This document shows, in pieces, positions 1 through 42,429 of a DNA stretch of 42,437 nucleotides (its first letter is position 1; each line of letters begins with the position of its first letter). The notes beneath the pieces were generated by a model. It did not search any database and was not told the origin of the DNA. It saw only the letters and a program-made list of their open reading frames with translations. The stretch is from Gloeomargarita sp. SKYB120 (GTDB lineage: Bacteria > Cyanobacteriota > Cyanobacteriia > Gloeomargaritales > Gloeomargaritaceae). The DNA lies in NCBI GenBank assembly GCA_025062155.1, contig JANXAM010000021.1, forward strand, positions 1-42,437. The letters are read 5' to 3'. Both the position numbers and the translations under genes were made by a program.

Positions 1-2033
<2,033 letters not shown>

Positions 2034-2784
2034 AGACTCACTGCGTCACTCCACAGTGATGTGGAGCAGCAAACCGACTAAAATCGGTAGAACCTTGTCG
2101 AGGTCACCGAACGCCTGGACAAGGCTATACCGAGGGTAAGTAGGATGCCCGTACCATGGCTAGTCCAGAGGTGTGGAGTTACATTGCGGGGTTTTTGGAT
2201 GGGGATGGGTGTATCAATGTCCAACTGGTGCGCCGTAAGGATTACCGGTTGGGCTACCAGATACGACCCAGTATCACCTTCTTCCAAAAACGGAAGCATC
2301 GGGCGTTCCTGGAATGGCTGCAATCGGTGTTAGGGGTGGGCCAGATTCGGGAACGCAAGGATGGGATGAGCGAGTATAGCGTGGTGGAAATTCGCGCAGT
2401 GGAGCAGGTGTTGCAGAAACTGCGCCCCTATATTCGCCTTAAGCAACCGCAGTGTGACTTGGTGCTGGAAATCGTGGCGGAGTTGAAGCACTCGGCCCGA
2501 TTGTCGCCTCAAGACTTTCTGCACTTGGCGCGCAAGGTAGACCGCTTTGAGGAGCTGAATGACTCGAAGCGGCGCTCGATTAAGTCCAGCCAGGTGGAGG
2601 AGTTTATGAGAGTACGGCACATCCTAATCCCGTAGAGACTGAGACCTAGGCTTGGTCAACCCCCAAGCGTAAGTCGAGAAGCCCTGCTGGTCAGGGTGTT
2701 CAAACGTCGGCTCCTGTGCTCGTTAGTTGGGTGAGAGCCAGGATGAAGATATAGTCCATGCCCGTAGTGATACGGGGGTTCATG
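2034..2784 (+). other. Group I intron in 23S rRNA (site L2593)
   Basis: A 751-nt insertion separates two blocks that are contiguous in normal 23S rRNA: GTTCAGAACGT (ending 2033) and CGTGAGACAGTTCGG (from 2785). The exon ends in T and the insert ends in G (2784), as group I splicing requires. A classic group I core element, AAGATATAGTCC, the 3' strand of P7 with the guanosine site, is at 2746-2757. It is followed by a short hairpin CCCGTA-GTGA-TACGGG (2761-2776) that fits P9. Near the 5' end CACTG/CAGTG (2039-2043 with 2054-2058) can form a P2-like stem. The insertion point is the same one used by the green algal chloroplast intron that encodes I-CreI. The intron is expected to self-splice; the exact pairings were not folded. 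Confidence 0.93.
2156..2635 (+). CDS. LAGLIDADG homing endonuclease, I-CreI type (intron-encoded)
   Basis: 159 aa, the size of I-CreI (163 aa), with a single LAGLIDADG motif IAGFLDGDG at residues 10-18, so it should act as a homodimer. By hand alignment to I-CreI the metal-binding aspartate D20 corresponds to D17, Q47 to Q44, and the K98 region KLKQKQ to RLKQPQ near residues 94-99. The C-terminal LNDSK block is also shared. The enzyme is expected to cut intronless 23S genes at the 2593 site and drive intron homing. The start is the ATG at 2156; a different-frame ATG lies 11 nt upstream. The frame is open throughout and all key residues are present, so it looks active. It is translated only from unspliced or excised intron RNA. 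Confidence 0.93.
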   Translation: MASPEVWSYIAGFLDGDGCINVQLVRRKDYRLGYQIRPSITFFQKRKHRAFLEWLQSVLGVGQIRERKDGMSEYSVVEIRAVEQVLQKLRPYIRLKQPQCDLVLEIVAELKHSARLSPQDFLHLARKVDRFEELNDSKRRSIKSSQVEEFMRVRHILIP

Positions 2785-3072
<288 letters not shown>

Positions 3073-3135
3073 CGTTGGTGGGTGACTATCTATCCCTATG
3101 CAGTTTTCAGGGTTTGGGTGTTCAGACAGACTCTT

Positions 3136-3253
3136 TCCTGGTGTCTATGGCGCGGTGGAACCACGCCGATCCATCCCGAACTCGGAGGTGAAACGCCGCA
3201 GCGGCGACGATAGTAGGTGGGCAACTGCCTGCGAAAATAGCACGATGCCAGGA
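3136..3253 (+). rRNA. rrf: 5S rRNA
   Basis: 118 nt, starting TCCTGGTGTCTATGGCG and ending GATGCCAGGA, so the two ends pair (TCCTGG with CCAGGA) as the terminal helix I of 5S rRNA. The internal block GGAACCACGCCGATCCATCC followed by CGAACTCGG is the standard 5S loop B/C region. It lies about 60 nt after the 23S 3' end and before a terminator, the normal end of a bacterial rrn operon. Confidence 0.97.
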
Positions 3254-3267
3254 AAAGCTTCCCCAAG

Positions 3268-3302
3268 ACCCTCTGGACCCTAGGTTCAGGGGGTTTTGTT
3301 TT
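3268..3302 (+). terminator. Rho-independent terminator of the rrn operon
   Basis: ACCCTCTG (3268-3275) can pair with CAGGGGGT around 3287-3294 with one G-T wobble across a loop of about 11 nt, followed by a T-rich tract (TTTTGTTTT). It lies 15 nt after the 5S rRNA. Confidence 0.75.
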
Positions 3303-3331
3303 GGCCGGATGCTTAGGGCAACCTGGGCCTC

Positions 3332-3360
3332 CTGTCAAGCACTGTTCCAGGCATGATAAT
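3332..3360 (+). promoter_or_regulatory. Candidate sigma70-type promoter for the 403-aa pentapeptide gene
   Basis: CTGTCA (3332-3337, four of six to TTGACA), a 17-nt spacer, then GATAAT (3355-3360, five of six to TATAAT). Transcription would start near 3367, about 20 nt before the ATG at 3388. Found by eye only. Confidence 0.4.
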
Positions 3361-3387
3361 GGACATGAGCGCTGAGCAGCTGCGGCA

Positions 3388-4599
3388 ATGCTGACCCCCT
3401 TAGAGTTGCAGGAGGCCTACAACGCCGGTAAACGCTCGTTCCCCCAGGTGCAACTGGCGGGGCAACTGTTGGAGGGGATGATCCTTAACGAAGCCTTTCT
3501 GGCGCGGGCGAATCTTCAGGGAGCCTACCTATGTTACAGCCAATTGCTTGGGGTGAATCTGGTGCAGGCCAATCTCCGCCATGCGGAACTGGTGCGGGTC
3601 AATCTCAAGCAGGCCAATCTGAGTGAAGCGGATTTGCGGGGGGCGAACCTGGTAGAGGCGAACCTGACGCGAGCAAGCTTGTTTCAAGCCCAGTTGGACG
3701 GCGCTAACCTAACTGAGGCGAATTTAACTGACAGTAACCTGCGTCAGGCGAGCTTAAACGGTGCAACGCTGCCTGGCAGTAACCTGCGCAAAGCGGACCT
3801 GCAAGGAGCATACCTAGCGCGGGTGCAGTTGGCCGGTGCTGATCTGGGAGAAGCCAACCTGGCGGGTGCTGTCCTGTCTCGCGGCGAACTAAACGGGGTG
3901 ATCTTGACCCAAGCGAATTTGCGGAGCGCTGACTTGACCGGCAGCAACCTCACCCGAGCTGACCTGTACCGGGCCGACTTGACGGGCGCCAACCTAATCC
4001 GAGCTGACCTGACCGGAGCGGAATTGGGACGTGTGTGCCTGCGGCAAGCCTGTTTGAGTGCAGCGGTGTTGAACCGGGCTACGCTCCAGGGAGCCGATTT
4101 ACAGGGGGGTGACGGCTGGACCGACTTGAGTTCGGCGGTGTTGACCGATTGCAATCTATCGGATGCCGACCTGCGGCGGGTGAATTTGACTCGGGCGAAT
4201 CTAAGCGGCGCCATTCTGACGGGAGCCGACCTGCGGGGTGCCCAACTGTGGGGAGCCAATCTAACCAACGCCGACTTGACGGGCGCCAACCTAGCCGGCA
4301 CGGACCTGCGTATGACCCTGCTCACGGATGCCAAGCTCCACCGCGCCGACTTGTCCGCGTGCAATCTCCAGGGGGTGGACCTTAGCCGGCGGGAACTGAC
4401 GCGGGTGAACCTGCACCGAGCCGACCTGCGGGGCGCTAACCTCAGCCGTGCGGTTCTCCACCAGGCGGACTTGATGGAAGCCCTGCTCGAGGGGGCCGAT
4501 TTTAGTGAAGCTGACCTGCGGGAGGCCCGCTTGACCGCAACGCTGGATGGGGCCAACTTCAAAGGGGCGCGTTTGCCCAATTTGCGGTCGGCGCCGTAG
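3388..4599 (+). CDS. Pentapeptide-repeat protein, 403 aa
   Basis: After a short N-terminal segment (residues 1-25, [12 protein letters not shown]-type cap common in cyanobacterial members) almost the whole protein consists of A(D/N)LXX pentapeptides, forming a right-handed quadrilateral beta-helix. The array is briefly interrupted around residues 238-246 (GGDGWTDLS). There is no signal peptide or membrane segment, so it is presumably cytosolic. Members of this family can be rigid scaffolds or DNA mimics, but nothing here points to a specific partner, and no function is assigned. The start at 3388 is the first ATG that opens this frame after a candidate promoter; no convincing ribosome binding site precedes it. 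The opposite strand is also open because of the repeat's codon pattern. Confidence 0.92.
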
Positions 4600-33844: not shown

Positions 33845-34669
33845 ATGGCGAGTCGGATGCTAGTGCAGCAACGGCGTGCCCCGGTGTGGATGCAACATCC
33901 CTTGGTGCGCAAGGTGGGCTTGGGATTCGTGGGCGTGCTGCTTTTTCTCCTGGTCTGGCAACTGCTGGTGCTCCTGGGACTGCTGAAGTTACCGGCGCCC
34001 ACGCAGGTGTTTGCCGATACGCGCGAACTGATTTTGCACCCTTTCTATCGCGGTACGGGCAACGATGCTGGCATTGGCTGGCAAATCCTGTTTAGCTTGC
34101 GGCGGGTGGCGCTGGGGTTTTCGTTCGCGGCCATCGTGGGGGTCGCCATTGGCATGGTGATTGGGGCCAGTCCCCTGCTCTACGACGCTTTTGACCCAAT
34201 TTTGCAGGTGTTGCGCCCGGTGCCCCCCTTGGCCTGGTTGCCGATTTCCCTGGCGGCGTTCAAGGACAATGAACCGGCGGCGGTGTTCGTGATTTTCATC
34301 ACGGCGGTCTGGCCCATCATCATCAACACGGTGGTGGGGGTGCAACAAATTCCCAGGGACTACCGCAATGTCGCCCGCGTCTTGCGCTTATCGAAGTGGG
34401 ATTACTTCTGGCATGTGATGGTGCCGGCAACCGTGCCCTATGTGTTTACGGGGTTGCGGATTGGCATCGGGCTGTCGTGGCTGGCGATTGTGGCGGCGGA
34501 AATGTTGATTGGTGGGGTGGGCATCGGCTTTTTCATCTGGGATGCCTGGAATAGCTCGCTGATTAGTGAAATCGTGATTGCCCTGTTCTACGTCGGTCTG
34601 GTGGGGCTGGTGCTAGACCGCTGTGTGGCCTATCTGGGCAAGTTCATCACCAAGGGAAGCGAGGTCTAG
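33845..34669 (+). CDS. nrtB: Nitrate ABC transporter permease NrtB
   Basis: 274 aa integral membrane subunit with about six helices; the first is LGFVGVLLFLLVWQLLVLLGL near residues 28-48. The permease/ATPase coupling segment is present around KWDYFWHVMVPATVPYVFTG. It forms the membrane channel as a dimer. It begins 4 nt after nrtA, behind a good AAGGAGG, and ends 4 nt before nrtC. Confidence 0.95.
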   Translation: MASRMLVQQRRAPVWMQHPLVRKVGLGFVGVLLFLLVWQLLVLLGLLKLPAPTQVFADTRELILHPFYRGTGNDAGIGWQILFSLRRVALGFSFAAIVGVAIGMVIGASPLLYDAFDPILQVLRPVPPLAWLPISLAAFKDNEPAAVFVIFITAVWPIIINTVVGVQQIPRDYRNVARVLRLSKWDYFWHVMVPATVPYVFTGLRIGIGLSWLAIVAAEMLIGGVGIGFFIWDAWNSSLISEIVIALFYVGLVGLVLDRCVAYLGKFITKGSEV

Positions 34670-34673
34670 GGAT

Positions 34674-36656
34674 ATGGCCAAGCCGCTGATTGAAATTGAC
34701 CACGTGGACATGGTGTTTACGTTGCCGGATGGCCAGCGTTACCCCGCGCTCAAGGACATTCACTTGGAAATTCACGAGGGGGAATTCGTGGCACTGCTGG
34801 GACACTCCGGTTGCGGCAAATCCACGCTGCTCAATATGGTGGCGGGTTTTCTGCGGCCCACTGCCGGCGGGGTGGTGCTGAGAGGTCGCCAGGTGACGGA
34901 ACCAGGACCCGACCGGATGGTGGTGTTTCAAAACTACTCGCTGCTGCCCTGGAAAACGGTTTACGACAACGTGGCGCTGGCGGTCCGTGCAGTGTTTCCC
35001 CGGTTGAGCAAAGCAGCGCAACACCAGCGCATCCAAACGGCCCTGGAGCAGGTACATCTGTGGGGCGCTCAGCACAAGTACCCGGCCCAACTTTCGGGGG
35101 GGATGCAACAACGGGTAGCGATTGCGCGGGCGCTTGCCATCACGCCCCAGGTGCTGTTGCTGGATGAGCCGTTTGGCGCATTGGACGCTCTGACGCGGGG
35201 GAGCTTGCAGGAGGAACTGATGGCGGTGTGTCAAACCGTGGGCATGACCTGTTTGATGGTGACCCACGATGTGGACGAAGCGCTGCTGCTGGCGGACCGG
35301 GTGGTGCTGTTGACCAATGGCCCCAACGCCCGCATTGGCCAGATACTGAAGGTGCCGTTTCCCCGCCCCCGCAGCCGGCATGAGGTGGTGCATCACCCCA
35401 GTTACTACACGTTGCGGCAACAGGTGGTGGACTTTTTGCAGCAACAACGCCGGCGTCGGGCGGTAGCGGTGCGTTCTGCGGCTGGGACGGGAACGCGGAA
35501 GGTAGCGGTGGGATTTTTGCCCTTGACGGACTGCGCGCCCCTGGTGGTGGCCCAAGCGGAGGGCATCTTCGCCGAGTACGGTCTGGAGGTAGACCTGTGC
35601 CAGGAAAACAGTTGGGCGGATTTGGCCGAGGGGGTGCTGTCGGGACGGTTGCAGGCGGCGCAGATGTTGGCCCCGTTGCCCTTGGCGCTGGCCGTTGGCT
35701 GTCAAGACCAACCCCCGCAACCGGCGCTCAAGGTTCCCCTGGTGCTCAGCCGCAATGGCAATGGCATCACGGTCAGTCGCGCGCTGTATGAACAAGGGGT
35801 GACGGATGTGGCCGCCTGCAAGGACTACATCGCCCGCACAGGTGAGCGCCTGGTGTTGGGGGTGGTGCATCCGGCGTCCATGCATAACCTATGGTTGCGG
35901 TATGCCCTGGCCAGTGCAGGGATGGACCCGGACCAGGATGTGGAACTGGTGGTAGCGCCGCCAGCGCAGATGGTCTATTACCTGGAGGCGGGGCATCTGC
36001 ATGGGTTTTGCGTGGGGCAACCCTGGAACACCTACGCCGAACGCCGGGGCCTAGGCAAGTGCATCAGCACCAGTCTGGATTGGTGGGCCGGTCACCCGGA
36101 AAAAGTCCTGGCTGTCCATCGCGGCTGGGCCAATGCCCACCCCGATTTGGAAGTGGCCCTGGTGAAAGCCCTGATGCGGGCGGGTGAACGTTGCGACATT
36201 CCCAAACAACGCCCGGCCATTGCCGAGCTGCTCAGTCGCCCGGAGTACTTGCATCTGGAACCTGACCTGATTCGTCCGGGCTTTGCCGAACCCCTGGCGA
36301 CCGAATCCCACTATCCCCGGCTGCACCAGTTTGCGGTTGGCCAGGCCAGTAGCCCCTTGCCCGCCGAAGGGGTTTGGATGTTGACCCAGTTGGCCCGCTG
36401 GGGATTGACGCCGCTGCCCCAAAACTGGTGGGAGGTGGTGCATACCGTCTATGCACTCGACGTGTTTATCCAAGCGGCGCAAGCGTTGGGCCGTCCCGAT
36501 ACGATTCCGGAGCGGCGGCAATTTGCCCTGGCCGATGGGGTGCTGTTCGATGCCGATAACCCCTTGGCCTACCTGGAGCAGTTCCCCATCCGCCGCGCCA
36601 TTGACTATCGCACGGTTTGTCTAGTTGAACGGGAGGAATCTCCATGCGTACCCTAG
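34674..36656 (+). CDS. nrtC: Nitrate ABC transporter ATPase with NrtA-like regulatory domain, NrtC
   Basis: 660 aa, the family length. Residues 1-260 are the ATPase: Walker [10 protein letters not shown], signature [15 protein letters not shown], Walker [13 protein letters not shown]. After a short Arg-rich linker (about 258-275) residues 280-660 repeat the NrtA binding fold ([61 protein letters not shown]). In Synechococcus this domain mediates ammonium-triggered inhibition of uptake. The start is ATG 34674, not upstream codons inside nrtB. The 3' end overlaps nrtD by 13 nt. Confidence 0.96.
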
Positions 36657-37441
36657 TTGCGCCCACCACGGCAACCCATCTCCGTCTGGAAAACGTCACC
36701 AAAGCCTACGGCAAGCACACGGTCTTGACCAACGTTGACCTGGAGATTAAAACCGGGGAGTTTGTCTGTGTAGTGGGCCATTCCGGCTGCGGCAAGACCA
36801 CCCTGCTCAACCTAGTGGCCGGATTTACCCAGCCCAGTAGCGGGTGTGTGCGTTTGAACGACCGCCCCATTACGCAACCTGGCCCTGACCGCATGGTGGT
36901 GTTTCAGAACTATTCCCTGTTGCCCTGGCTGACGGCCTACCAAAACGTTGACCTGGCGGTGAAAGCTGTTTTTCCCCAGCTCTCCCCTGGCCAGCGGCGG
37001 CGCATGGTCTATGAGCACCTGGAGCTGGTGGGACTGCAGGACGCAGCGCACAAGTATCCGGCGCAACTGTCCGGGGGCATGAAACAGCGGGTGGCGATTG
37101 CGCGGGCGCTAGCCGTCCGTCCCGAAGTGTTGCTGCTGGATGAACCCTTTGGGGCGCTGGATGCCATCACCAAAGAGGAATTGCAAGACCAACTGTTGCA
37201 CATCTGGCGTCGCCATCAGGCCACCGTGCTGATGATTACCCACGACATTGATGAAGCTTTATACCTGAGCGACCGGCTGGTGCTGATGACCAATGGGCCG
37301 GCGGCCACCATCGGCGAAATCCTGGAGATTCCTTTTACCCGTCCCCGCCATCGCCAGCGCCTGCAAAACGACCCCCACTATTACCGCCTGCGCAACCACA
37401 TCCTGGAATTTCTCTACGAGCGCTTTGCGCACCATGAGTGA
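36644..37441 (+). CDS. nrtD: Nitrate ABC transporter ATPase NrtD
   Basis: 265 aa, ATPase only: Walker [10 protein letters not shown], signature [15 protein letters not shown], Walker [13 protein letters not shown], and the switch histidine in [15 protein letters not shown]. It pairs with NrtC to drive NrtB. The start at 36644 follows GGGAGGAAT and overlaps nrtC by 13 nt; the end overlaps narB by 8 nt. The N-terminal region 1-230 is strongly similar to NrtC's ATPase, showing duplication of the subunit. Confidence 0.96.
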
Positions 37442-39629
37442 CGCCGTCACCAAAACCCTGTGTCCCTACTGCGGCGTGGGGTGCGGGTTAGAGGTCGTCG
37501 CAGGCGCTAAAGTCCGAGGCGACCGGGCGCATCCATCGTCGCTCGGGATGGTCTGCGTCAAGGGGGCAACGGTGTTGGAGGCGTTGGACAAAGACCGGCT
37601 GCTCTATCCCCTGTACCGGGCGTCTCTAGACCAGCCGTTTGCCCGCATCTCCTGGGACGCAGCCCTGGACTTGATCGTCGAGCGCATCCGCCAGGTGCTG
37701 CACACCACAGGACCCGACGGTATTTGTCTTTACGGTTCAGGGCAATGGCAAACCGAGGACTACTACGTGGCCCAAAAACTGGTCAAGGGCTGCCTGGGTA
37801 CCAACAACTTCGACACCAACTCGCGGCTATGCATGTCCAGCGCTGTTGCGGCTTACACGGCTAGTTTTGGGAGCGATGGGCCGCCCTGTTGCTATGCCGA
37901 TTTGGAACACACAGATTGCGCGTTCTTAATTGGCACCAACACCGCAGAATGCCATCCTATCGTGTTTAATCGCCTGCGCCAGCATCACAAAAAACATTCC
38001 CACGTGAAATTGGTCGTGGTGGATCCCCGCCGCACCGCAACCGCTGCCGTTGCCGATTTGCACTTGGCGATTCGTCCAGGAAGTGATATCTACCTGCTGC
38101 ACGGCATCGCCCACCTGCTCATTGCGTGGGATGTGATAGACCACCGCTTCATTGCCCAGCACACGACGGGGTTTGCGTCGTACCAGCAAATCGTCAAGAA
38201 GTATCACCCCCAGCTGGTGGCGGACGCCTGCGGGATTGACCCAGCCGCGCTCGTGCAAGCAGCCCAGTGGTGGGCGGAATCCCAAGCGGTGTTGTCCCTG
38301 TGGTCCATGGGCATCAACCAGTCGCGGGAGGGAACCGCCAAGGCCCAGAGTTTAATCAACCTGCATCTTTTAACGGGACAAATTGGCAAACCAGGAGCGG
38401 GGCCGTTTTCCCTGACCGGGCAACCCAATGCCATGGGCGGGCGGGAGACGGGGGGACTGGCCCATCTGTTGCCGGGGTATCGGTGGGTGACCAACCCTGA
38501 CCATCGCCGGGAGGTAGAAACTCACTGGCAATTGCCGCCGGGGTCGATATCCCCCCAGCCTGGTCGCACTGCTTGGCAAATCATCGAAGGACTCGAAACC
38601 GGTGCCGTCCAGATGCTCTGGATTGCCGCCACCAATCCTGCTGTGAGCTTACCGCATCTTGAGCGCGTGAAAGCAGCGCTGGCCCGCTCGCCGTTTACGG
38701 TTTACCAGGACTGTTATTTCCCCACCGAAACTAGCGCCTATGCCCATTTGCTGTTGCCCTGCGCCCAGTGGGGGGAAAAGACAGGGACCATGACCAACTC
38801 CGAACGGCGAGTGACCCTGTGTCAGGCCTTTCGCGCACCGCCAGGAGAGGCCAAAGCCGACTGGGAAATCTTTGCCGAAGTGGGTCGTCGCTTGGGTTTT
38901 GCCCAGCAATTTGCCTTTCACACGAGCGCCGAGGTGTTTGCTGAATTTGCCGCGCTCACCCAGGGCCGTCCCTGTGACCTTTCGGGGATGAGTCACGAGC
39001 GGTTGGCGCGTTTGGGTCCCCTGCAATGGCCCTGTCCAGCGGGTTGCACCGATGCAGCAGTGCGTCAGGACAAACGCCTTTACACCGACCATCGCTTTTT
39101 AACCCCTGATGGCCGCGCCCATTTTGGCCTGGCCGATGCGCTGGGGGTTGCTGAAGTTCCCGATGACGAATACCCCCTGGTGCTGACCACTGGGCGGCTC
39201 TACGGGCATTGGCACACCCAAACCCGCACGGGACGCATTCCCAAGATTCAGCAAATGCATCCCCAGCCTTTCGTGGAAATTCACCCCAGCGACGCCGAGC
39301 GATGGGGCATTACCGATGGCGCTCTCATCACCGTGACGTCTCGCCGGGGTACCGTGCAGTTACCCGCCAAAGTCACCCCCGACATTGCACCGGGCACCCT
39401 GTTTACACCCATGCACTGGGGCGCGCTCTGGCATCCATCCGCTGCAGCCAACGCCTTGACCCATCCTGTTGCCTGTCCCACGTCCCAGCAACCGGAACTC
39501 AAAGCCTGCGCCGTGCGGATTGCCGCAGCCACTCCCCCACCAGCAGCCAAAACGCCAGAACGCCCCCCGTCAGACCCAGCACCGGCCACAGGCCCCACAC
39601 GTGAAGCAAGACAGGAGCCGCCGCTGTGA
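37434..39629 (+). CDS. narB: Ferredoxin-nitrate reductase NarB
   Basis: 731 aa molybdoenzyme that reduces nitrate to nitrite with ferredoxin. The N-terminal [4Fe-4S] cysteines are in CPYCGVGC, with the fourth in GMVCVKG. The Mo-coordinating cysteine lies in [13 protein letters not shown]. Bis-MGD binding stretches include [22 protein letters not shown] and [18 protein letters not shown]. The family core ends near [13 protein letters not shown]; the last 33 residues are Pro/Ala-rich and overlap the 3' end of the minus-strand symporter gene by 131 nt. The start at ATG 37434 overlaps nrtD by 8 nt; the frame is open further upstream only as a shadow. Confidence 0.97.
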
Positions 39630-40899: not shown

Positions 40900-42429
40900 C
40901 TAAGCCGGACAATGGTCAAAGATCAACACCCGCCCTGTTACCGGTGAATCGTAGCACAATCGCCGCGCGACCCCATGTAACCCATGAGCAATTGCCAAAT
41001 ACATCCAAATCGGCGCTTGACCCGTCAGGATAACGTCCTTGCCTTGGCCGGCTAACTCCTTCGCTCGAGCAATGTAGTCCGGTAACGCTTCTAGCTTTGC
41101 GGTGCCTTCGTAGAGAGTCCCCAGGTCAATGACAACCTGGTCAGTCCCAAGTTTTTCTAAGGACGTGCCTTCCAAGAGTGCTTGCAACCACTCAGGAATC
41201 TGTTGCGCTCTTTTGCTAATAGTCTTCGCATCGCTGCGGTCTTTTCTCATTCCGCCATGGGCGACATCATTGCGCAATTCCCTAAGTGCGTTCCACACTT
41301 TGGCTATTTGGCATGCATAGGGCTTTGTTCGCAGCCAAAGTGGTACATCGGCTTCTTTACTTTTGTCTTTCTTACACCATAGCTCTACGGAAGCTCCTAA
41401 TGCTTTTTCCATGTTCTCACGTTCGTCAGAGTTCAGCCAATTGCCCTCCTCCTGAACTAGAAACATCCAACTTACAACCCACTCTCGCGCTAGGGTAATT
41501 GCCTGTACCACCAAGCCTTTTTGCAAGCAGTAATTGATGAGCGCCAGTTGGCAGCGCAATTGCTGTTTACTTAAGTCCTTCGGTCTTTCATAGGCTAGGG
41601 GTTGAATCTCCTGTTGCACTTGTTCAACGATCACAGCAAATGGTTTAGCCCATCGTTGAAACTCTTGTTGGGCATTTTGCAATTCGGGCAACAATTGCTG
41701 AGCAATTTCCATAACATCTAATGGTCGCACCAGATAGAGCGCTTGCGTCCATTGGCTCAATCTATTGGCAACCCGTTGCAAGTGGTAAGGGCGTTCATCT
41801 CCTTGGGGTTGTTTCCAGAGTTGCCGATGAGTTTGTTCCATACGCTCAGCCAATACTCGCGCATCGCCCCGCTTAAGCAGTGCCTCTGCCCCTCCTAGCC
41901 AATCCAACAGATCAAGAATAGATGTCAAGTCAAACACTGGCGCTTGGTCTTGCGGTTCAGGGGGGTCTCGAAACGGTTGCCGCGCCTCATAAGCTCCGTA
42001 AAGAATGCGTTCGACACAAACATCCTTTGTCCGTCGTAGGTAGGCCGCCACCGCTAGCGCCAGCATCGGTAACGACCGAAACGCGTGGGTTACATCTAGC
42101 AGCAGTTTTTCTTGCAATTGAATACTCTCAGTAATCTGGTCAAAAATAGTCCACAAATCATCTGGGAATTTACCGTCAGGAATGTGGATTAATTCAAGGG
42201 TTTTGCCTTGCTGACTCAAGGTCTTTTGAAATGCTTCGTAATTTGGTTTGCCCCTGCCTTCTAACACTTCTTGGGTTGCTGCTAGTAGGATACGTTGCGG
42301 CTGGAAAAACTCACAAGCAGCAATAGGAAACAAATGGGTTTGACACTGTTTTTCCTGTGTCCCGTCCCACCAGCAGTAGGTAACAGTTCTGTTACTACCC
42401 GTGCCAAGAAAAGTCAGTAAGGTAGTCAT
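40900..42429 (-). CDS. CRISPR ancillary protein: Csx2/TM1812-type CARF, HEPN, and C-terminal Csx3/Crn3-like domain
   Basis: 509 aa. Residues 1 to about 175 match the TM1812/Csx2 family sensor domain: LLTFLGTGSNRTVTY at the N-terminus, HLFPIAACEFFQPQRILLAATQE, and LLLDVTHAFRSLPMLAL at 110-125. A helical middle (about 180-425) contains the HEPN ribonuclease motif R-x4-H as R386-NDVA-H391. Residues 428-509 resemble Csx3 (Crn3): DLGTLYEGTA, VILTGQAPIWMYLAIAHGL, then CYDSP. H485 and D494 align with the AfCsx3 catalytic H60 and D69. Such a protein would sense cyclic oligoadenylate, cut RNA, and destroy the messenger itself. The gene is AT-richer by eye than its neighbours. Only 8 nt upstream are in the window. 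Confidence 0.82.
   Translation of the reverse strand: MTTLLTFLGTGSNRTVTYCWWDGTQEKQCQTHLFPIAACEFFQPQRILLAATQEVLEGRGKPNYEAFQKTLSQQGKTLELIHIPDGKFPDDLWTIFDQITESIQLQEKLLLDVTHAFRSLPMLALAVAAYLRRTKDVCVERILYGAYEARQPFRDPPEPQDQAPVFDLTSILDLLDWLGGAEALLKRGDARVLAERMEQTHRQLWKQPQGDERPYHLQRVANRLSQWTQALYLVRPLDVMEIAQQLLPELQNAQQEFQRWAKPFAVIVEQVQQEIQPLAYERPKDLSKQQLRCQLALINYCLQKGLVVQAITLAREWVVSWMFLVQEEGNWLNSDERENMEKALGASVELWCKKDKSKEADVPLWLRTKPYACQIAKVWNALRELRNDVAHGGMRKDRSDAKTISKRAQQIPEWLQALLEGTSLEKLGTDQVVIDLGTLYEGTAKLEALPDYIARAKELAGQGKDVILTGQAPIWMYLAIAHGLHGVARRLCYDSPVTGRVLIFDHCPA

Follow-up and report, generated by a model that had tools for sequence, protein, structure and literature searches.

The terminal gene of a contig of Gloeomargarita sp. 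SKYB120 encodes a single chain in which a CARF sensor, a HEPN ribonuclease domain and a domain with the Csx3 fold follow each other. As judged from sequence comparison, its new element is the third part, a member of a phage-shared Csx3-like clade that appears to keep one catalytic face, while the architecture itself is already named. A self-limiting effector still seems the likeliest function. The first-pass annotation had claimed a CARF-HEPN-Csx3 order in one chain, and this was borne out by an intact frame of 509 amino acids, by matches to TIGR02221 and Pfam Cas_csx3, and by structural similarity to AfCsx3. The residues that it had singled out, R386, H391, H485, and D494, are located where it placed them.

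The fusion gene and its surroundings

The gene is encoded on the minus strand of the window (the whole stretch of DNA analyzed, 42,437 nucleotides) at positions 40900..42429. Read from 42429 to 40900, it forms a single open frame with an ATG start and without internal stop, which is also covered by the PADLOC profile PDLC01844. It is the last gene of contig C21, its ATG lying 8 bases from the contig end, in an assembly of 2.48 Mb and 91 contigs. No overlap joining this end to any other contig was found, and no match to Cmr6.

The G+C content is 49.1% in the fusion gene and 58.9% in the window, and at third codon positions 48% are opposed to 67% in the two neighboring genes. These lower values suggest that the gene was acquired from elsewhere. 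Its 3-mer usage resembles that of Cmr contig C59, a likeness to which no evidential weight is given because 15 of 225 control pieces were equally close. A scan against Rfam gave no match. Further inside the window (33845-39629), reading by eye reveals nitrate-transporter-like ABC genes and a nitrate-reductase-like gene, which fits a cyanobacterial chromosome.

Sensor and ribonuclease domains

The N-terminal part (residues ~1-200; 41830..42429, minus strand) is a CARF domain of the Csx2/TM1812 type. It scores 100.2 bits with TIGR02221 (E 1.5e-28), above the cut-off of 76.25, and matches the structures 8y75, 8y7g, and 8y6z at residues 75-183. The DxTHG motif model TIGR02549 matches residues 110-134 (E 1.8e-10) and contains the CARF motif D112-x-T114-H115 (42085..42096, minus strand). 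The HEPN domain (residues ~285-420; 41170..41577, minus strand) is indicated by alignment and by the PADLOC CARF_HEPN profiles PDLC01824 and PDLC01032; its catalytic motif R386-x4-H391 (RNDVAH) lies at 41257..41274 on the same strand. When the fusion was aligned with 18 CARF-HEPN homologs, D112, T114, H115, R386, N387, A390, and H391 were invariant in all 19 sequences.

Cyanobacterial Csx1 proteins are 25-35% identical to this CARF-HEPN part, and the closest relative found, a Csx1 encoded on a plasmid of Thermomicrobium roseum, is 41% identical. The same plasmid had given a match of 36% at "full coverage" and was considered as a second fusion, but its translation stops after the HEPN domain and lacks Csx3, which makes it a plain Csx1. 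No CARF-HEPN relatives were identified among the viral contigs. By each feature examined, the protein is thus assigned to the Csx1/TM1812-type CARF-HEPN proteins and predicted to be a ribonuclease. Outside the Csx3 domain the full-length AlphaFold model, for which alignment rows came from some loci only, is poor (mean pLDDT 51.7).

A Csx3 fold with half of the catalytic residues

The C-terminal domain (residues 430-509; 40903..41142, minus strand) matches Pfam Cas_csx3 at residues 464-508, where its 31.5 bits exceed the gathering score of 21, and its last 84 residues are modeled by AlphaFold (AF2) with a pLDDT of 91.7. A comparison of the C-terminal region with AfCsx3, as the first-pass annotation had suggested, revealed the Csx3 fold: all top five VIA-align matches are AfCsx3 (Z 8.3-8.7, the best being 8.7, rmsd 2.1 Å over 76-77 residues), followed by a SAVED-CHAT protein at 6.6. 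The viral structure library gave no significant match to the domain, and no DUF1874 was detected by the Pfam scan of the protein. The outcome for TIGR02221 and TIGR02579 is divided. While the sensor model scores above its cut-off, the Crn3/Csx3 equivalog TIGR02579 of NCBIfam yields 24.6 and 28.4 bits and stays below 55.4.

A cA4 molecule bound by AfCsx3 lies between two adjacent dimers, one of which contributes the D69 face and the other the H60 face. The mutants H60A and D69A are each dead, activity returns when both are mixed, and R71A and H80A are strongly reduced (PMC7371418). Contacts to cA4 are made by I22, S44, G45, R46, I49, and R71 (PMC7371418). The histidine face is Mn-dependent, and in Csx3/Crn3 cA4 is cleaved by a head-to-tail tetramer. 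Alignment of the fusion with AF_1864 assigns H482 and H485 (40975..40986, minus strand) to H57 and H60, and H506 to H80. These three histidines are kept in nine of nine members of the clade described below. On the other hand, T469, Q471, and V497 take the places of S44, R46, and R71, and arginine is found at the R46 and R71 positions in none of the nine members.

The counterpart of D69 hinges on a one-residue gap, as phmmer assigns it to D494 (40948..40950, minus strand) and MAFFT to the invariant S495. With the former placement the clade reads D (in the fusion), R, Q, R, E, S, T, R, and L, and under either one a conserved aspartate at this position appears to be absent from the clade. Since the position is variable, D494 is not evidence of a conserved catalytic aspartate. 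Of the catalytic pair H485/D494 postulated before, the histidine side is therefore clade-invariant, whereas the D69 side, along with R71 and R46, is not conserved. Invariants of the clade's own include K445, W475, S495-P496, and D505, and the backbone lining the cA4 pocket (G45-x-x-P-I/V-W) is retained. D505, next to H506 (40912..40917 for the pair, minus strand), could provide an extra acidic group on the histidine face. Because the cut-off of TIGR02579 is missed and R46 and R71 are lost, the domain is best labeled Csx3-like and not Crn3, as its model and alignment indicate the Csx3 fold with half of the catalytic set.

Other Csx3 variants were noticed as well. Tandem or paired Csx3 proteins of cyanobacteria (L103:9648-11024, L102:9312-10587, and L058:1348-2688) have one copy without the histidine face that keeps parts of the D69 face; this copy mirrors the clade of the fusion. 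A widespread standalone Csx3-like family of ~101-aa ORFs (L091-L101, L105) displays the pattern LKINGPxSIPVAFVLAHKLAH...DPK and weak Cas_csx3 scores.

A short Csx3-like clade shared with phages

The proteins most closely related to residues 425-509 are small and stand alone, with 49-65% identity. Together with the fusion domain, three bacterial and five viral-contig standalone members form a clade of nine sequences, separated from canonical and other Csx3 proteins with a support of 100/100 in the tree. The bacterial members stem from one small phylum (L004/L107 in genome G417, L108 in G420, and L109 in G419), and the viral ones are located at L115:5359-5598, L116:7986-8249, L117:7995-8237, L118:2006-2263, and L123:8001-8243. 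Three of these contigs look genuinely phage because terminase and portal genes are present in both L116 and L123, and a gene for a RecE-like recombination exonuclease in L115; the viral status of L117 and L118 is given by the IMG/VR classification alone. No convincing family match was obtained for eight clade members in a PHROG scan, and no clade relatives were found in 50,697 phage records. In contig L115, the stretch 1809-4467 also contains genes for type IV-like Cas11, Cas7, and Cas5 along with a CysH/PAPS-reductase-like gene, just upstream of the Csx3-like gene.

Each of the three bacterial standalone genes is found immediately downstream of a CARF effector gene, and two of them overlap the effector frame by 4 bases. 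In L109 the clade gene follows a CARF-PD-D/ExK nuclease gene with such an overlap, and in L004 it follows a gene similar to that nuclease. In L110/L108 (L110:2705-3882) it is overlapped by 4 bases by a gene for a membrane CARF-type protein, an effector/module pairing parallel to the fusion. From its ORFs, the wider L109 locus (L111) reveals RAMP-like and cas1/cas2-like genes and a repeat array. The position just downstream of CARF effectors implies an association of the clade with the sensor.

The phage-borne members are candidates for type III anti-CRISPRs and point to a possible new family of these. The module, we infer, was taken from a pool common to phages and CRISPR loci before it was fused.

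Distribution and prior naming of the architecture

The PADLOC profile PDLC01844, named CARF2--CARF_HEPN_CSX3, covers residues 3-507 of the fusion in one stretch (profile positions 2-463 of 464, E 2.5e-160), and the standalone members of the clade likewise align with its Csx3 part (385-464). The CARF-HEPN-Csx3 architecture is thus catalogued already, not CHARACTERISED. The name presumably goes back to the CARF classification by Makarova et al. (2020). An independent profile that spans the fusion shows that the domain order was seen by others before and does not result from a local assembly error. The first-pass annotation, which knew of no described example, would have been refuted by an already named and characterized family; this applies in part, to the naming, as the literature searched names or studies no characterized CARF-HEPN-Csx3 protein.

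At E<=1e-60, PDLC01844 matches in 26 of 386 cyanobacterial genomes, and its Csx3 part is reached solely in Gloeomargarita sp. SKYB120, which is also the only one of the 386 to match a profile of the Csx3 clade. A second CARF-HEPN-Csx3 fusion was found neither in these genomes or the nine genomes of the G417 phylum nor among plasmids, phage records, or viral contigs. Long cyanobacterial ORFs with weak Csx3 matches in G163, G176, and G251 are tandem Csx3-AAA-like proteins and not CARF fusions. Within the genome, plasmid, phage, and viral sets searched, the fusion is rare.

Other type III CRISPR genes of the genome

Two type III-B-like Cas10/Cmr2 genes, both with GGDD, are located on short contigs (L134 on C59 and L135 on C55), and C55 harbors a CRISPR array with 11 copies of a 36-base repeat. 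An ancillary island on contig C5 comprises Csx3-AAA, CARF-RelE, a WYL regulator, and a csx1 with an in-frame TAG. The Csx3-AAA protein carries equivalents of S44, R46, H57, H60, D69, R71, and H80. The csx1 gene (L054/L055; C5:51844-53061) is 33% identical and has its TAG in the CARF part (KHW*HLQ); barring a sequencing error, this other csx1 of the genome looks broken. In view of the Cas10 genes and the C5 island, a cA4 producer and further cA4-handling proteins are plausibly present, on contigs other than that of the fusion gene.

Proposed function and alternatives

We hold with moderate confidence that the protein is an RNase which limits itself by means of a ring-nuclease-like module, and that this module works with one of the two catalytic faces of Csx3. 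As expected from the respective families, Cas10 would make cA4, the CARF dimer would bind it, and the HEPN domain would then cut RNA. The Csx3-like module would cleave cA4 via the histidine face of H482, H485, and H506. The opposite face would be replaced by some other cA4-holding surface, either a new one of its own, its own CARF dimer, or another protein. Removal of cA4 by the module would render the RNase self-timed, like Csx1-Crn2. The sensing half of this scheme draws on well-conserved motifs and family membership, and the eraser half is presumed, given that a set of residues essential in AfCsx3 is missing.

Several observations speak for the self-limiting reading: the invariant equivalents of H57, H60, and H80 in the whole clade, the invariant CARF and HEPN motifs, the Csx3 fold within an intact full-length fusion, standalone relatives adjoining CARF effectors, Cas10/Cmr2 genes with GGDD in the genome, and the in-frame stop in its other TM1812-type gene. 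Precedents are given by Csx1-Crn2 (PMC7293037) and the split active site of Csx3 (PMC7371418). Against it stand the effects of D69A and R71A in AfCsx3, as the clade lacks R71, R46, and a conserved D69, so that it is not established that the activator is erased in the way known from Csx3. The low TIGR02579 scores (24.6-28.4 bits, cut-off 55.4), the poor full-length model outside the Csx3 domain, and the location at a contig end count against it as well.

The loss of the catalytic R71 and of a conserved D69, with the backbone of the cA4 pocket still in place, is what a module that binds cA4 without cleaving it would also display. Such a module, the main rival of the self-limiting reading, could be a sponge or, by oligomerization, alter the sensitivity of the RNase, in which case the copies in phages would serve as sponges for cA4. 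We consider it somewhat unlikely, given that none of the nine members has lost any of the three histidines that serve catalysis in AfCsx3, and a sponge would be less pressed to keep them. The complementation of AfCsx3 halves in mixture (PMC7371418) brings up another option, namely that the module is a half-enzyme. The Csx3-AAA protein encoded with a full residue set on contig C5 would hold cA4 on its D69 face, and the module would add the H60 face. This is improbable, because Csx3-AAA sits on another contig and is complete by itself, and the clade also occurs in phages and in the G417 phylum, where a canonical Csx3 partner is not in evidence.

A domain that acts on RNA by trimming 3' ends, adding to the RNase activity, would recall the first description of AfCsx3 as a Mn-dependent RNA deadenylase working via H60 (cited in PMC7371418 and PMC7293037); we regard it as highly improbable, since AfCsx3 binds cA4 ~100 times tighter than RNA (PMC7371418). 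As to an assembly or frameshift artefact, the gene does lie at a contig end, but the domains meet ~1.2 kb inside the contig, in a single frame that stays open, and a profile built independently covers the same fusion, which makes this explanation scarcely credible. Returning to the self-limiting reading, a bolder version of it sees the clade as a one-faced Csx3. Its histidine face would close over cA4 held by a CARF dimer, such that sensor and eraser have one cA4 in common; phages would strip the cA4 of host effectors with the lone face, and the host would have fused it to an effector of its own as a built-in timer. We think this quite unlikely.

Comparison with known systems

Ring nucleases help to set the outcome of a type III CRISPR response, recovery or dormancy. 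PDLC01844 has a three-domain order identical to that of the fusion; it is a sequence profile only, and neither function, residue analysis, nor phage relatives were found attached to it. AfCsx3/Crn3 (PDB 6yud, 6vjg, 3wzi) shares the fold and the H57/H60/H80 face. In contrast, the fusion lacks R46, R71, and the stretch after H80, the D69 position varies within its clade, and it is joined to CARF-HEPN. As the clade drops residues thought to be essential to Csx3 chemistry and keeps the histidine face, it tests the Csx3 mechanism. Csx3-AAA (Csx3'), common in cyanobacteria, likewise carries a Csx3 domain within a longer protein, but there Csx3 is N-terminal, has the canonical residues, and is partnered by an ATPase/kinase.

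AcrIII-1 and AcrIII-2 (PMC12751052, PMC12409355) resemble the viral clade members in being small phage proteins related to a CRISPR ring nuclease, although the families differ. The surveys PMC12409355 and PMC12751052 list phage Crn2, Csx16, Csx20, and viral SAVED and no Csx3, and phage Crn3/Csx3 is not listed in the survey of 28,114 genomes (PMC12409355). The 2025 ring-nuclease survey applied an upper limit of 250 aa, by which fusions like CARF-HEPN-Csx3 would be hidden.

The closest parallel is the self-limiting fusion Csx1-Crn2 of Marinitoga piezophila (PMC7293037; structure 8y7g), in which a Csx1-type CARF-HEPN RNase ends in a ring-nuclease domain and whose module has phage relatives (AcrIII-1). 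If the phage copies of the clade are anti-CRISPRs, the fusion parallels it in this respect, too. The ring nuclease of Csx1-Crn2 is, however, DUF1874/Crn2, of an unrelated fold, whereas the fusion reported here has the Csx3 fold. With a natural RNase-Csx3 fusion, "fuse to defuse" would have a second and independent example besides Csx1-Crn2.
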